This document shows, one piece after another, positions 14,452 through 21,297 of a stretch of DNA of 64,000 bases. Under the pieces are notes generated by a model, which was given only the letters and a program-made list of their open reading frames with translations, was not told the DNA's origin and did not search any database. The stretch's first letter is position 1. Each line of letters starts with the position of its first letter. The stretch lies in the NCBI GenBank assembly GCA_029834535.1, contig JAQMWT010000040.1, positions 310,001-374,000 on the forward strand, read 5' to 3'. Origin of the DNA: Chrysophaeum taylorii (taxonomy: Eukaryota; Sar; Pelagophyceae; Pelagomonadales; Pelagomonadaceae). The translations under genes were made by a program, and so were the position numbers.

Positions 14452-14675
14452 TGACGGGTCCAAAACGCTACCCGAAAAAAATGCCGGCCCCGAAGAAGAA
14501 GAAGAAGAAGAAGAGTAAACTAAACTAAACCCGGGAGTCGAGTCGCGTGGTTGGTTGAAGCACGGACGGACTTCACAGGTGGGGCCACCACGGTGCCGGT
14601 TCTGGGATTGAAGGTTGGGGCTGGGAAGCAGTACAAAGTATAGAAAAAAGTATGTAGTTGGTGCCAACCTCGAAG

Positions 14676-17600
14676 ATGGCCGGTGTCGATCAAGTTCGAC
14701 GCGAGCTGGGGTCGTCCGAGGAAGAGGGGTCGCAGTCTATTTGGTTGTGCGCACGGAGCGCCGCAGGTCGCGCCGGGCTCGTGGACCTGATGTACTCGAC
14801 GAGTGGTAGTAGCAGCAATCCGAACGCGAGCGTTCGGATTGCGCGGTCGCTGCTGGTGCCCGAGTTGGAGGATGTGGAGAGCTCGACGGAGGGTTTGGAG
14901 GCGTTGCTGTCGTGCGCGGCGTGCGCGCGGACGCTGGATCCGTCGGAAAACGACAGCAACGGCGTGGGCGCGACGCGGGCGCTCGAGGAGGTCGGTCGGC
15001 TGGCGCCGCGGCAGGTGTGCCAGTACGTATTCAAGCGGAACGACATCGTGTGGATCTGCCGGACGTGCCAGGCCGACGAGACGTGCGTCATGTGCAACGA
15101 GTGCTACCGGGAGTCGAGCCACCCGGGCCACGACGTTTACTTCTACAAGGCGCAGGCGGGCGGGTGTTGCGACTGCTTTCCGGTCGAAGACCACCAGCTC
15201 TTGACGAGCGGCGGGTTCAAGTTCTTCGACGAGCTCGAAGGCACCGAGCTCTTCGCGGGCTACGATCCCCGGACGGAGGAAATCGTGTACGAGCGAGCGT
15301 CGAGGGTCGTGATGCGCGAGCTCGAGCCCGAGGAAGATCTCGCCGAGATTTCCAACGCGAAAGAGGCTCGGAGGTGGCGGGGACCGGACGGCTCATTCTC
15401 TGGCACCGAGGAGGAAGAAGAAGGGGTCTCGGTGATCGCGACCAGAGGCCACGACATGTACGTGCGTGGTTCGAGCGGGTTCGTGAAGCGCAAGGCCGCG
15501 GGAGTCGCGACGCAGCGGCGACCGATCGGGCTGCTCGCGCGCGCGGCCGGCGGGAGGCGCGCGGCGACCGACTCGGAGAGATGGCTCCGGACATTCGGTG
15601 CCGACACCGAGGCCAAGGTGGTGGCGTTTTTGGAATTTTACGGCTGCTGGCTCGCCGAGGGTATGATTTTTGGGGGAAACGACGACGACGACGACGACGA
15701 GTCGCGGGCCGAGGCGTTGGTCGGGGTTACTAAAGAAGGCGGCGGCGAGGCCGCGCGTTTTATTTTTCCGTGGGTGTTTGGACTCGGACGAGACCGCGCG
15801 CGAGCGATCGTGCGGGGTCTCTCTCGGAAAGAAAACTCCGTGTCGACGGCGTGCGTCGCCTTCAGAGACCAAGTCGTTCGCCTGTGCCTGCACGCCGGGT
15901 ACGCGGTCGGCTTCCGCCGGGACGAAAAAGATTCGTGGCGCGTCACTTTCTCGGAGACTCCGCGCGCGGCCGAGCCGAGGCTAGATTCCGGGAGGGACGT
16001 GACGCGAGTCTTCCGTTCTCGTTCTACCCGACGAGTATGGTGCGCGACGCTGCGGGTTGGACACGTCGTCGTGCGACGCGCTCGTCGCGTCGACGGCGTC
16101 GTCCTCGAGGCCTCGGTCCCGACTATCCAGGGAAACTGCGGCGACGCGGACGCCTGGGATCCCGCGGGCTTTTGCGCGCGGCACGGCGCGAACGCGGCCG
16201 TCGATCCGCTGCGCGCGGCGCCGCGCGAGCTCGTCGACCAGTGTGCGGCCGTCGTCGACGAGTGCGCGCGCGCGATTCTCCTCGCGTGCGCCGACGCGGT
16301 CGGCGCCTACGCCCTAACGGACGACGAGGACGCGAGCGCGTGCGAGGAGGAGGACGAGGGCTCGCGCGCCGCGCGCGCGGCGGCCGCCGCGCTTCGGGCG
16401 TGCGCTCGGCGGTTTGGCGGCGCCGCCGCGAGAAGGCGATCGGATAGTAGGCGCGACGACGAGTACGTCGCGCTCGTGCTGCACCAGGACGACGTCCACA
16501 CGTACGAGGAGGTGATGTCGCCGCTCCAGATGCTGGGGCTCGCGGCGCGCGAGAGTCGGGCCCTCGCGCTCGAGGCGCACGACGCGGGCGAGTCGGTCGT
16601 GCGGCGCGGCACGCGACGCCGCATTCGGCAGCTCGCGGCCGTGCTTCGCGGACGCGGCGTTTTGGTGAGCGTTCGGTCGCGCGAGACTACGGCCCGGGGC
16701 GAGACGGCCCGCGCGGCGATCCGATGGCTCCACCGCCTCGCGATGAGCTCGGACGCGCTCTGCCGCCTCGTCTGCGACCGTTTTGATTTCGACGCGCTCA
16801 AGGCGCTCCTCCGCGCCGACGCCCGCCTCTCCAAACCGACGGTCCTCGCGCTCCACGCGCTCTACCTGACCCTCATGGCCGACCAGCAGTTCAAGAGGGT
16901 CATCGCGACGGCCTACGCGGCCGTCTACGCCGAGATGACGGCCGACTACGCGCGCGGCGTCGGCGTTTCCGACCGCGCCCTCTACTCGCTCAGCGTCCAG
17001 TTCTTGAACCGCGCGACCTTTGTCGTCGACCTCGTCGAGCGCCACGCGCTCCTCGAGACCCTCGCCGTCTCTCTCTGCGCCGCGCTCGATACCGCTGCCG
17101 AACCGCGAGAAGAAGAAGAAGAAGAAGAAGAAGAAGAAGAAGAAGAACAACAACAACAACATGAGTCGTCGCCCTCGTCGATCCCGTTCGTCGCGCTTCC
17201 CGAGGCGCTTTCGCGGGACGACGAGGCTCGAGAGTTCTGCGAATCGGCGACCGCGCGTCGCGTCGTCGGCATGGCCCACGTCGTTCTCCTGCACCGGCGG
17301 TACTCGCCCATCATCGCCGACTTGAAGTGTGTCCTGAACATCGAGGGCATGGCCGAGCAGTTTGTCGCGCGGTGCCTGGCCTCCTGGCTGAGCGCGCTCG
17401 CGCGCGTCCACGGCGTCGACGCCCAGACGCGCCGCACGCACCTCGACGCTCACGTCGAGTGGGAGAACCGCGAGTGGATGTTCGCCTTCAACGTCAACAT
17501 CTCGGTCTCGAGCGTCTTCGACGTCCTCGCCGCCTGGGTCCGCCGCGCGTGGACCAGCCCGGCGGCGCCCGCCAAGTGCGCGCTCGTCGAGTCCCTCTGC

Positions 17601-20600
17601 CTCGCCGCGCTCGCGATTCTCGGCAAACGCTTGCCTTTGAAGAAGAAGAAGAAGAATAAAGAAGAAGAAGAAGAAAGGCTCGACCTGGACGCCGCGTTGC
17701 GGCGCGGGCGGCTGTTCGCGGGCAAGCCGAGCTTCCACTTGCCGCTCCACCGGTTCGTCGCGCACGTCGCGTGCGAAGTCGCCAAGAGCAAGGGCCTAAA
17801 CGGCGTGCTGGCGTCGGTGTTGTCGCGGCTGGCCGCGCTTCCTACGACCTCGCTCGCGGCCGTCGTCGACGAGCCGCTGTGCGCGTTGCGGCTCGCGGCC
17901 CAGATCCGCGTCGGCTTGTGGCGAAGAAACGGCCACGCGATGAACGACCAGCTCATGAACTACTCGGAGCCGCCGTTTTGCAAGATGTTCCGGGACCTCG
18001 ACCTGGCCTTCCTTCAGTTGGTCGGGGTCGCCTACGGCGCCTCGAACGCGGCGCGGCACGTGCTCTTTCGCTTCGACTCGGCCGGCCCTTTGCTGCGGCG
18101 GCAGCACTCCTCTTCCTCCGACGCGGCGCCGCGTCCGGGACGCGAGGACGGGCTCGCCGAGAGGGAGAGACGCGACTCGTCGGCAAACCTCGCCGAGGAG
18201 GCGCTCTTGCTGCTGATCTTGATGGCGACCGAGGTGCCGCGGTCGCCCGACGACGACGAGGAGCCCCCGAGCCCGCCCGAGGTGGCCAAGACGCGGCGCG
18301 GGGCCGTGGACGTCGGGGCCCCGGGGGCCGCGCGTTCCGCGAGAGTCGCGGCGAACGTTCGCCGCGAGCTCGTGCATCGGCTCGCGGCGGGACCGTGCAC
18401 GCGCAGCGAGGTCCACGAGAGCTTCCAGCTGATCCCAAAGTCGGACGCGATGCCGGCGGCAGTTTTGGAGCGCATCCTCGAAGACGTCGCGGCGCGGCGG
18501 CCGGCCAAGGGCCTCGAACCCGAAAAACTCGAGCTCAGATCCGAGTGCTGGGCCGAGTTCGACGCGACGTTCTACCACCTCTCGCCGCAGGCCCGCGCCC
18601 GGGCCCTCGAGGCGATGCCGGCGGTCGGCGACGATTCGCCGATCGTCGGCCCGCCCCCGCCCGAACACCCGGCCTTCTCGAATTTCCGAAGAGATATTCT
18701 CGCGTGCGACGTCGTCCAGACGGCGGTCCGCGCGGCCCTCGCGAATCAATCCTGGACGACCGAGACCCTCGTCGGCACGGCGATCCACCTCCTCACGCTC
18801 GCCGCCCACGTCCTGCCGGCGCCCGCGTTTTCAGAACTCCTTTCGCGCGGCGACCCGTCGACCCTCGATCTCGTCGCGCGTCTCCTCCTCGAGGACGACG
18901 AGGGGGGGGGACGCCGCCTCGAGCCCAAGACGCGCGCGGGCGCGCGCTGGCTCGAGATTCGGGCGGCAGCTTCCGGTCTCCGCGCGCGAGAAGAAAAAAA
19001 GCCGCCGCCGCCGCCGCGAGAAAAGCAGCCGCCGCGAGAAAAGCCGTCGCCGCGCGAAGACGACCGCGGCAAACAGGCGCGCGACCGGATCCTCGCGTCG
19101 ATGAAACTCAAGTCCGACGCCTTCATGAGCATCCTCGACGACGACGACGACGAGGAGGAGGAGGAGGTGCTGCTGCCTGACTACGAAAGAGCGGCGGACC
19201 ACGAGATTCCGGCTCGTTTGGTCGTCCGCGACGACGTCGAGTGCATCGTGTGTCGCGAGCGCGGCTCGCGGACTCGGCCTCTCGGGTACGTCGCCTTTGC
19301 TCAGCGATCGCGAGCTCTCGCGCGCCGCGAATCGACGGGGACCTGCGGCGTCTTCGTTCGCCAGTGCGGCCACGCGCTCCACTACGACTGCTTCGACGAC
19401 TATTTCGCGACCGTCGTCCAAAGGTCCGAGGCGGCGGGCCACGTCGTCCTCGACGTCTCCACCGGCGAGTTCCAGTGTCCGCTCTGCAAGGTCCTCTCCA
19501 ACGCGATCGTCCCGGCCCTCGACGCCTTTCGCGCTCTTCCGCCGCCGGCTGCTGCTGCCGTCGAAGACGACGATTCGCTACCGCCCCCCGTCTGCGGACC
19601 TCCGTGCGGAACGCTCGATTCGCTGCTCGCGGCCCGTCGCGACGACGACGACGACGACGACGAGATTCCCGCTCTCTACGAGGCCGCGGCCCGTTCAGAG
19701 CGCGACGCGCCCGAGAACGCGCCCTCGCCCTCGAGAATCGAACGCCGGGATTGCAAAGAAGTCGCGGACGAAATTTCGAAATGGGCGACCGAAGGCCTCG
19801 CGGTCGCGCTCGCCTCGCGCGAAGAGCTCCCGGCGGTCCTCGACCCCGTCGTCCGCCGATTTCTCGTCTCGATGGGCGAAATCAACCGCGACAACAAGCT
19901 CGCGAAGGGCTACGAGGGGGCCGTCGCCTCGGTCGACGTCCTCGCGACTTCCCTCGCCTGCACGGTTTCGCTCGCCGATCACCAACAAAAGGAGATCGCC
20001 CGCTGTGCGCGCCTCGCCGACGTCCTCCGGTACGCGACCGCGGTCGCGCGAGCCGACCTCCGCGCCGCGCTTTCCGCCTCGCTCCTCGACGCCTCGCGCG
20101 ACGACGACGTGTCCTACTCCATGGCCGTCGACGACAACGCCGACCGTCGTCCAAACGCGAAGAGGCCTCTCCTCCGCGCGAACATCCTTTCTGTCTTGGC
20201 TCTTTTGCTCGCCGTTTTCGACGACGACCACCACCACCACCACCAAACCCTGCCTCCGATTCCCGTGCTCCTCGGCTTCCTCGCCCTCGCCGTCGCCGCG
20301 CAGCGCGCCTACCTCGACGACGACGACGCGTCGTCGAGACGCGACGATGGTCGTCTCGGCGCGGCGACTTTTTTTTTCGAAGAACGAGGAGGAGGTTCTG
20401 CGCGCTACGACGACGTGGCTGTCAGAGATTTTTTGAGACGCGCGACCCTCCTCCTCGACGCCTGGGGCCACCGCGTGCCGAAACGACCCCCCGACCCCGA
20501 CGCTCCCCTCGACGCCTGGCGACGCTATCTAGGGATCCCTTCGGTCGAAGCGATGCTCGCCTTCCCCGCCCTATCCTCCGCCGTTCGTCGATGGGCAGAA

Positions 20601-21117
20601 AGAGCCGATGCCGACGCCGACGTGGCCGCCGACCCGCCCGCGGCTTCCTACGCTGACCTCGTCCCCCTCCCGACCGCCTACACCGAGCTCCACACCCAGC
20701 TCACCGCCAAAACAAACTCGGAACACCCCGCCGTCTGCCTCGTTTGCGGCGACGTCCTCTGCGCCGCCGGCAAGGGCGCCTGCACGCGCCACGCCCTCGC
20801 CTGCGGCGCCGGCACCGGCATCTTCTTCCTCCTCCAGGAGTGCTCCCTCCTCCTCGTCCACGGACACCGCGCGGCCTACTTTGCCTCGCCCTACGTCGAC
20901 GCCTACGGCGAGCGCCACGGCCAGTTCCGCGGCCGGCCCCTCTTCCTCGATCCCGCCCGCGTCGACGTCGTTCGCCGCATGTGGGCCACCCACGCCGTCG
21001 CCGACCAGGTCGTGCAGTCCAGATCCACGAGCAGGTTGGTTTTTTTTTCTCTAATTATTTCTGAGATGACGCGACGACCCCCGCCGCAGGCAAATCATCA
21101 TCAACGACTACTACTGA
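14676..21117 (+). CDS. UBR1: UBR1-type N-recognin E3 ubiquitin ligase containing an intein
   Basis: Exons 14676..21034 and 21090..21117 encode a 2128-residue precursor (1807 after intein removal). It recognises destabilising N-terminal residues and ubiquitinates the substrate with an E2. The UBR box begins near residue 115 (CQYVFKRND, then CRTCQADETCVMCNECY, HPGHD, GGCCD). It is interrupted by the intein at residues 167-487 and resumes CGDADAW and FCARHG at 488-504. A ClpS-like N-domain for bulky type 2 N-ends lies about 595-665 (LVLHQDDVHTYEEVM). A RING-H2 lies about 1519-1602 (CIVC, QCGHALHYDC, CPLC). A C-terminal UAIN-like autoinhibitory region lies about 1975-2128 (VCLVCGD, GRPLFLDPARVDVVRRMW). 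The 55-bp intron (gttggt...cgcag) shifts the frame to a short tail, QIIINDYY. The start is the ATG at 14676; an in-frame TTG lies upstream. Confidence 0.93.
15174..16136 (+). mobile_element. Intein (321 residues) inserted in the UBR box
   Basis: The open frame continues through 963 bp that do not belong to the UBR box. The insert begins with Cys (CFPVEDHQLLTSGGFKF, block A) and has block B with the TxxH signature (VIATRGHDMYVR, about insert residues 84-97). It carries two LAGLIDADG-like motifs (FYGCWLAEGMI near 160 and VRGLSRKENSV near 211, followed by LCLHAGYAVGF), then block F (VWCATLRVGHVVVRR near 286). It ends VPTIQGN directly before a Cys extein residue. Deleting it joins GGCCD to CGDADAW, the exact UBR consensus. 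Asp is at -1 and Cys at +1. The penultimate residue is Gly instead of the usual His, and both endonuclease acids appear as Glu. An intron is unlikely because the whole length is coding and matches Hint/endonuclease blocks. Confidence 0.93.
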
Positions 21118-21297
21118 TTGATCTCTCTTCTTTCTGGTCCCGTTTTGTCAGTCACACAGGAAGAACAACAACAACAACAACAACAAGAGACTTTTATTCT
21201 GGAAAAGAAAAGGAAAGGAGGGGAGGGTGCCCGCCCTCCTTTGTTTGTATACGTTTGTTTGTTTGTTTGTAGGATATATATAGGCGACGTACTACTA

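Follow-up and report, generated by a model that had tools for sequence, protein, structure and literature searches.

What is a 963-bp open insert doing inside the zinc-binding core of a ubiquitin ligase? The question is raised by a window of 64,000 nucleotides from the alga Chrysophaeum taylorii (assembly GCA_029834535.1, contig JAQMWT010000040.1, positions 310,001 to 374,000 of the forward strand), in which the UBR box of a UBR1/PRT6-type E3 ligase is split in frame. Our analysis makes it very probable that the insert is a class-1-type intein (here the UBR intein, or UBR copy) from a family that colonizes nuclear genes, and that it splices out of the translated precursor and restores the UBR box. 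The parts of the host gene concerned, in window positions, are as follows.

14658 to 21272, plus strand: open frame of the host gene, a UBR1/PRT6-type E3 ligase, containing the intein; the first ATG is at 14676
15015 to 15173, plus strand: N-terminal part of the UBR box (profile positions 1 to 54, Pfam), with last residues GGCCD
15174 to 16136, plus strand: predicted intein, 321 codons, Cys1 to Asn321 (reading frame, relatives, alignment, predicted fold)
16137 to 16181, plus strand: C-terminal part of the UBR box (profile positions 55 to 69, Pfam), its first residue being the +1 Cys of CGDADAW

The host gene forms one open frame of 2204 codons that includes the insert. Pfam recognizes zf-UBR, ClpS, UBR1-like winged helix, and PRT6_C domains in it, and the host is therefore a UBR1/PRT6-type E3 ligase; two database relatives of the protein, P0035 and P0036, are 53 to 54% identical to it. 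Computed from the frame alone, the protein minus the intein would have 1877 residues; a sequence-only reading of the window had put the mature protein at 1807. The final codons of the frame probably run into a 3′ intron, and the place where the relatives end suggests that this intron is short. The insert occupies exactly 321 codons between GGCCD and CGDADAW. Its first codon is TGC (Cys1), its last two are GGA AAC (Gly-Asn), and the codon after it is again TGC (Cys+1), all read directly from the frame, as the sequence-only reading had described. That reading also held that removal of the insert gives the UBR zinc-binding core, and this was borne out. The joined flanks read GGCCDCGDADAW, the Pfam zf-UBR score rises from 58.3 bits over positions 1 to 54 of 69 to 74.8 bits over the full length of 1 to 69, and the joined box matches the solved UBR boxes of PRT6, UBR1, and UBR2. 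The junction residues then numbered 166 and 488, counted from the first ATG, are residues 172 and 494 of the open frame. The GC content of the insert (0.652) is near that of its flanks (0.657 and 0.681), and its openness is more than chance, as 321 codons stayed open in 2 of 2000 first-order Markov sequences of equal composition.

The same site is empty elsewhere. When the UBR region was used to look for homologues, 81 of 8000 scored candidates were returned, some of them bearing stramenopile names (diatom, Ectocarpus), and GGCCDCGD was unbroken in all five orthologues read from that list, namely, the three top-ranked UBR orthologues (P0035, P0036, and P0038, the last also drawn from a transcriptome set), P0047, and P0056. 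Aligning 11 UBR proteins gives invariant columns that pass directly from D172 to C494 of the window frame. A second UBR gene in the same genome (L028, C145:47766-48059, minus strand), whose box is 49% identical to that of the window gene, is also without an intein and reads GGCCDCGDLEAW. The empty site in five orthologues and one paralogue therefore identifies an exact insertion, in agreement with the earlier reading.

The insert carries the blocks expected of an intein and the remains of an endonuclease. Blocks A, B, and F were seen where the sequence-only reading had placed them.

15174 to 15215, plus strand: block A, CFPVEDHQLLTSGG, with the nucleophile Cys1 (alignments A3 and A5)
15432 to 15467, plus strand: block B, VIATRGHDMYVR, Thr90-x-x-His93 (all 17 rows of A5 have T90 and H93)
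15627 to 15668, plus strand: degenerate LAGLIDADG motif 1, FLEFYGCWLAEGMI; in fuller relatives FLEFYGFWLGDGSL (alignment)
15663 to 15755, plus strand: acidic, low-confidence remnant of the endonuclease domain, residues 164 to 194, predicted local distance difference test (pLDDT) below 50 (AlphaFold2 model)
15798 to 15839, plus strand: degenerate LAGLIDADG motif 2, ARAIVRGLSRKENS; in fuller relatives ARAILRGLxxADGS (alignment)
15864 to 15902, plus strand: RDQVVRLCLHAGY, which follows motif 2 and is conserved both across the family and in a viral-contig RNA polymerase intein (alignment, hhalign)
16035 to 16079, plus strand: block F, VWCATLRVGHVVVRR, with Cys290 (invariant in 10 of 10 rows of A3 and 17 of 17 of A5)
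16119 to 16136, plus strand: block G, PTIQGN, with terminal Asn321 and penultimate Gly (A3 and a 39-member table)

Alignment A3 holds 10 full-length copies, with exon joins made by eye in 4 of the 10 rows, and A5 holds the window copy and 16 of the 33 proteins from a database search with the family alignment. In A3, Cys1, L10-T11, G14-F15, H93, R231-D232, W289-C290, R301-R302, and N321 are invariant (10 of 10) and T90 is conserved in at least 90% of rows; in A5, C1 is invariant in all 17 rows, as are the block B and F residues above, and N321 is conserved in at least 90%. The table covers 39 members with both ends found, 12 from this genome and 27 from the database. Its cutting pattern demanded a Cys start and an N or Q end before C, S, or T, and Cys1 is thus present in it by construction; in at least five rows its TxxH pattern fell on block A (TEDHQLL or a similar string) rather than on block B, and the TxxH claim rests on the alignments. 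Of the 39, 37 end in Asn and 2 in Gln; the residue before the last is Gly in 37, and one member each has His and Lys there. Gln in place of Asn before the +1 Cys was noticed in family members P0012, P0013, and P0114. Class-1 inteins are characterized by Cys or Ser at position 1, a TxxH in block B, a terminal Asn, Cys, Ser, or Thr at +1, and the horseshoe-shaped Hint fold. The insert has Cys1, TxxH, the terminal Asn followed by Cys+1, and a predicted Hint fold, and its removal restores the host.

The endonuclease half is a different matter. The two LAGLIDADG-like motifs noted earlier are real by alignment with longer relatives, but they are degenerate in the UBR copy and do not have the features of an active enzyme: motif 1 reads WLAEG, with Glu where fuller relatives have Asp, and motif 2, SRKEN, is unrecognizable. 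According to the alignment and the AlphaFold2 model, the region between the motifs is short and partly disordered. Judged from these residues, the endonuclease part is decayed.

The predicted fold points to inteins. The AlphaFold2 model, built from the window copy with 16 database relatives as alignment, has a mean pLDDT of 85.3 and a predicted template modeling score of 0.85, and residues 164 to 194 are its single segment below 50. In a Foldseek comparison with the PDB, all seven matches at E ≤ 0.001 among the best 50 of 214 rows were inteins or intein endonucleases (PhoVMA at 9.4e-8, four PI-SceI chains, 2cw7, and PI-PfuI), whereas Hedgehog Hint, small or split inteins, and bacterial intein-like domains, also among the best 50 of 214, matched at E > 0.01. 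PI-SceI (the yeast VMA1 intein) and PhoVMA, at E values of 9.4e-8 to 9.1e-5, share only 7 to 14% identity with the UBR intein; the endonuclease of PI-SceI is active, whereas that of the UBR intein is decayed. Viral polymerase entries matched more strongly than PDB entries. There were 117 fold matches at E ≤ 0.001 in BFVD (best 50 rows listed), of which the best was an RNA polymerase fragment of Emiliania huxleyi virus (EhV) V2 (E of 2.7e-16, TM-score of 0.70 on the query). Four of ranks 1 to 6 were RNA polymerases, from EhV V2, Hyperionvirus, Catovirus, and a Marseillevirus, and the other two were the DNA polymerase of a Pandoravirus and an “intein splicing domain” of a phage. The EhV V2, Hyperionvirus, and Catovirus entries, at ranks 1, 2, and 4, would match through an intein, and an RNA polymerase intein is described for isolate EhV163 in the available text of PMC1635734.

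One viral intein could be aligned with the family directly. The hhalign comparison of the family profile with the RNA polymerase beta intein of viral contig L024 gave a probability of 99 and an E of 4.2e-18 from motif 2 through block F. The two share RDxxxxLxLHxGYSA after motif 2 and VWCxxxPxGxxxVRR in block F and differ in host gene and site, and the L024 intein ends in WCGN before Ser. L024 was the one match of the viral scan with A5; the scan of viral contigs with A2 gave none, and the UBR copy itself had no useful match there. The scan with A1 picked up L023, a phage-type protein that was rejected as a chance match to PTIQGNC. No viral relative nearer than L024 appeared in these pattern-limited scans, which started from a few short peptide patterns, and this absence is weak evidence. 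The prokaryote genomes scanned with A1 gave no match, nor did Rfam and tRNA scans of the window.

Standard intein models barely register the family. TIGR01445 touches 2 of the 10 members of A3 at E ≤ 1 (best, 4e-4), and in the C. taylorii genome it finds the copy in a PP5 phosphatase (24.6 bits against a cutoff of 24.5) and an intein in RPC2, the second subunit of RNA polymerase III (28.9 bits). The latter (L025 58-3246, C398:324039-) is a separate, canonical intein, with junctions QWGML/CVEPGALVL and VTHN/CPADTPEGE. PF14890, the Pfam Intein_splicing model, finds no copy in this genome and responds in 6 of 14 control genomes. Because it also misses the canonical RPC2 intein (25.5 bits as protein, against a cutoff of 35.8), its silence is weak evidence of novelty. 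For six database members, no intein model is listed (for P0007, among the 25 of 36 rows listed).

The UBR intein is one of many in its genome, which was beyond what the window alone could reveal. The genome (70.8 Mb, 697 contigs) was searched with the UBR copy, three other copies of its own, and one database relative, and the frames were read. Both ends are present in 13 copies, the UBR copy among them, which occupy 9 sites and whose hosts belong to six gene families (UBR, PP5, channel, dynein, kinesin, and CDC27); there are also two relics. In the following list, slashes mark the insertion points.

C40: UBR copy
C334: PP5 phosphatase copy, SAPNY/CDAMGNKG
C24: cyclic-nucleotide-gated ankyrin channel, two copies, ADVA/CVDRWK and DPN/SGDYD
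C111 and C183: dynein heavy chains, two copies each, VFN/CDEG and GAWG/CFDEFNRL
C138: dynein, two copies, MRK/CFDN and VFN/CSDQ
C110: kinesin copy, LTLGN/C
C330: kinesin copy, in the same motor part as the C110 site
C40:259239-259898 (L020), minus strand: CDC27 copy, VLH/CYLG, a mini-intein of 220 residues that shares its contig with the UBR copy, 65 kb away
C330: decayed copy directly before the kinesin intein
C552:124484-124603 (L021): short C-terminal relic with an in-frame TAA

Own-genome relatives of the UBR intein reach down to an E of 1.3e-22 (the PP5 copy, over residues 5 to 321), and other own-genome matches start at residue 1 or finish at residue 321. Pfam confirms the hosts for frames from C334, C24 (first channel site), C330, C110, C111, C138 (the site outside the linker), and C40. 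The CDC27 intein has no endonuclease by frame reading, and among the genome's copies only kinesin C110 has Asp in both endonuclease motifs (WLGDGTL and FADGSE) by A3 and frame reading. At kinesin locus L014 (C330:332086-334856), an apparent tandem was seen, in which a decayed mini-intein with TPSEQ at the TxxH place and no terminal Asn is followed by a complete intein.

Frame changes or in-frame stops interrupt seven copies, and these interruptions are probably spliceosomal introns. GT-AG ends are clear in channel copy b and, for the second C111 dynein copy and the decayed C330 copy, in an intron immediately ahead of Cys1. In-frame stops occur in the first C111, the first C183, and the second C138 copies, and the interruptions that do not have clear GT-AG ends, these three copies included, may instead be damage. 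By eye, an intron end falls within one codon of Cys1 in dynein C111:10440-10690 (L012) and kinesin C330:331930-332086 (L014), which may be chance or may be a clue to how the elements enter. The host families and the introns together place the intein family in the nuclear genome.

Sister copies in the dyneins are under purifying selection that is looser than that on their hosts. The ratio of nonsynonymous to synonymous substitution rates (dN/dS) between C111 and C183 is 0.31 for the N part and 0.31 for the C part of the first dynein inteins and 0.206/0.540 = 0.38 for the second (0.25 to 0.61 in 100-codon pieces), compared to 0.05 to 0.16 for the dynein exteins. These ratios concern the dynein copies and say nothing directly on the UBR copy.

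Beyond this genome, 33 of the 7999 database candidates scored with the family alignment reached E ≤ 0.01, and several more proteins came from the UBR search. Their hosts, assigned by precomputed Pfam domains and sequence reading, are mostly metagenomic. In the eukaryote-type kinases, phosphatases, MCM, and helicases, the intein is directly before a conserved Cys, Ser, or Thr. The hosts include dynein; MCM (GIC/CIDEFDKM); protein tyrosine and dual-specificity phosphatases and myotubularin, where the insertion lies between H and C of the HC...R signature, whose Cys is the catalytic one; and protein kinases, where the site precedes the catalytic-loop stretch CDLKARN (P0026 and P0027) or, in several others, a stretch leading to DVW. 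Further hosts are a RhoGAP, an SH2-like protein, carbamoyl-phosphate synthase, an Rpn11-like MPN protein, a deubiquitinase, a channel, and DHH1 helicases, one of them named Coemansia, a fungus. P0037, filed under a bacterial (Dehalococcoidales) metagenome-assembled genome, is a DYRK-like eukaryotic kinase with two family inteins and is probably from a misbinned contig. Two proteins, P0104 (DHH1 helicase) and P0013 (carbamoyl-phosphate synthase), have a family intein and an apparent second, more canonical intein (ends LTGN/C and VVTHN/S).

How these inteins reached their sites was considered with a midpoint-rooted tree of 38 members, 12 of them from this genome, which left out P0110 (no motif) and the second C183 dynein copy and in which 13 of 35 inner branches are weakly supported. 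Same-site inteins from different records pair at the dynein GAWG (95/76), MCM (100/98), and DHH1 (100/99) sites. Two placements count against a simple same-site rule: the C138 VFN copy does not group with the two remaining VFN copies, and the tree joins the C330 kinesin copy to a dynein copy (91/73), with the C110 kinesin copy branching outside this pair (80/93). The own-genome rows are partly clustered, as they need 7 changes on the tree, two of them forced by well-supported branches, compared to a shuffled mean of 10.3, and 7 of 500 shuffles were as low. A single recent burst within the genome is unsupported, as the 12 own rows need those 7 changes. The pattern suggests inheritance or homing at old sites with occasional entry into new ones, partly within the organism's own lineage.

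The exact insertion, the empty sites, the homology, the predicted Hint fold, and the purifying selection on sister copies are established, and the conserved residues and the fold argue that the UBR intein would excise itself and ligate its exteins. Class-1 splicing proceeds by a Cys1 thioester, transfer to Cys+1, Asn cyclization, and peptide bond formation, and the residues for each step are present. The gene would be transcribed and translated with the intein in place, giving a precursor in which the intein, standing between the two Cys-rich halves of the core, would keep a proper UBR zinc site from forming. Cys1 would convert the upstream peptide bond to a thioester, the +1 Cys at the start of CGDADAW would take over the N-terminal half, and Asn321 would cyclize and free the intein, with a new peptide bond joining the flanks. 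Splicing would in this way restore GGCCDCGD and yield the N-degron-binding box, and the ligated peptide would be AQAGGCCDCGDADAWDPAGFCAR, at which the C145 paralogue differs. The UBR box folds around zinc, and as the +1 Cys is the first residue of the CGD half of the zinc core, the ligase would be unable to bind N-degrons before splicing. With its endonuclease part decayed, the UBR copy has probably lost the ability to home and probably survives because the host protein depends on its splicing.

Several observations weigh against this account. First, the penultimate His of block G, a usual though not universal intein feature, is absent, and Gly320 stands in its place. Second, searches with ordinary tools were silent: Pfam and NCBIfam gave no hit for the UBR copy alone (the PF14890 and TIGR01445 cutoffs were not reached), the first protein database search with that copy alone found no homologue, a PDB sequence search with it gave no intein and one chance match to a cell division protein (E of 0.61), and the family profile found no intein among PDB sequences. 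The intein-like Hint fold emerged through the predicted model and the family profiles, and of the two results that would have refuted the sequence-only reading, a lack of Hint-fold similarity and removal as a spliceosomal intron, neither appeared in these sequence-based tests. Third, no relative with an intein at the UBR site was found. Fourth, the paralogue on C145 is intein-free, and the host need not depend on splicing of the UBR copy. Finally, an in-frame GT-AG pair (15183-16130) lies close to the ends of the insert; its removal would leave CFPGN in the zinc core.

The alternative that survives best, unlikely as we consider it, is an intein by descent that no longer splices or only cleaves, a copy on its way out while the C145 paralogue does the work. 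The decayed endonuclease fits this, as does the existence of that paralogue. So does the UBR branch length of 1.07, about twice the median of 0.53, although the tree tool flagged no branch as long. However, every splice site residue is intact, and the host frame stays open over its 2204 codons, with its identity to relatives kept and its UBR, ClpS, wing, and PRT6_C domains recognizable. It is much less likely that the Hint domain performs another kind of self-processing, cleavage only, and makes two UBR fragments on purpose. Hedgehog and bacterial intein-like structures are among the weaker fold matches and share the Hint fold; to our knowledge, these domains do not ligate their flanks as inteins do, whereas the UBR intein keeps the terminal Asn and the +1 Cys needed for ligation, and cleavage would destroy a folded domain in UBR, dynein, and kinesin hosts, which are all split mid-domain. 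Removal from RNA as an unusual spliceosomal intron is hardly credible: GT-AG introns do occur in this genome, some inside or beside sister inteins, and the pair just mentioned is close to the ends, but no GT-AG, GC-AG, or AT-AC pair from 60 nt outside to 200 nt inside the ends restores an uninterrupted protein, none of the six equivalent placements of the deletion, which yield identical DNA, has such ends, and the insert stays open, shows conservation at the protein level, and has a predicted fold like that of an intein.

Goodwin et al. (2006; PMC1635734) describe inteins of RPA2, RPB2, and RPC2, among them ones of a slime mould and a green alga. For nuclear and chloroplast genomes together, Green et al. 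(2018; PMC5784728) count 257 inteins. Most of the nuclear ones are fungal, and the great majority are in Prp8, VMA1, and RNA polymerase; a green alga, social amoebae, and others have a few. The highest count for one nuclear genome, as far as their text was available, is three. The UBR intein resembles the nuclear inteins of PRP8, VMA1, RPA2/RPB2/RPC2, GLT1, CHS2, and ThrRS covered by the available parts of these sources (PMC5784728 and PMC1635734) in being nuclear, in frame, at a conserved site, and built of a Hint domain with or without a LAGLIDADG endonuclease. It differs from the known alleles (PRP8, VMA1, RPB2, and so on) in its host gene and site. The words “ubiquitin,” “dynein,” “kinesin,” and “kinase” do not occur in the main text of PMC5784728, and the accessible parts of two reviews (PMC7765530 and PMC12702839) mention nothing comparable. 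No UBR intein or intein of this family was found in the literature searched, which mostly stops short of subscription papers. The earlier claim of a bona fide intein at a new host site therefore stands as to the insertion, the homology, the predicted fold, and the lack of an earlier UBR report, with splicing still a deduction and the endonuclease half decayed. The element is an intein in kind, and we regard its family, with many signaling and motor hosts and this copy number in one nucleus, as a new variety of that kind.

A bolder idea, for which we see some but not much chance, is that eukaryotic nuclei harbor inteins of an unrecognized class, which invades one new gene after another (kinases, phosphatases, motors, ubiquitin enzymes, and channels), often directly before a catalytic or metal-binding residue, and is kept because its splicing serves as a conditional on-switch. 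As the +1 Cys of the UBR intein is in the zinc core, the formation of an active N-degron ligase could be controlled by zinc or by redox state. Zinc gating of the UBR intein may be a fair idea by analogy with one mycobacterial intein for which zinc is a reversible inhibitor, according to the available text of PMC7360933.

Nuclear inteins have been deemed rare and mostly fungal (PMC5784728), yet one nucleus holds 13 copies of one family in six gene families. Standard models barely detect this family, and surveys based on such models can miss elements of this kind. The family may supply inteins with noncanonical ends for protein engineering, and it raises testable questions about the route by which inteins reach new nuclear sites and about protein splicing as an enzyme switch at the active site.

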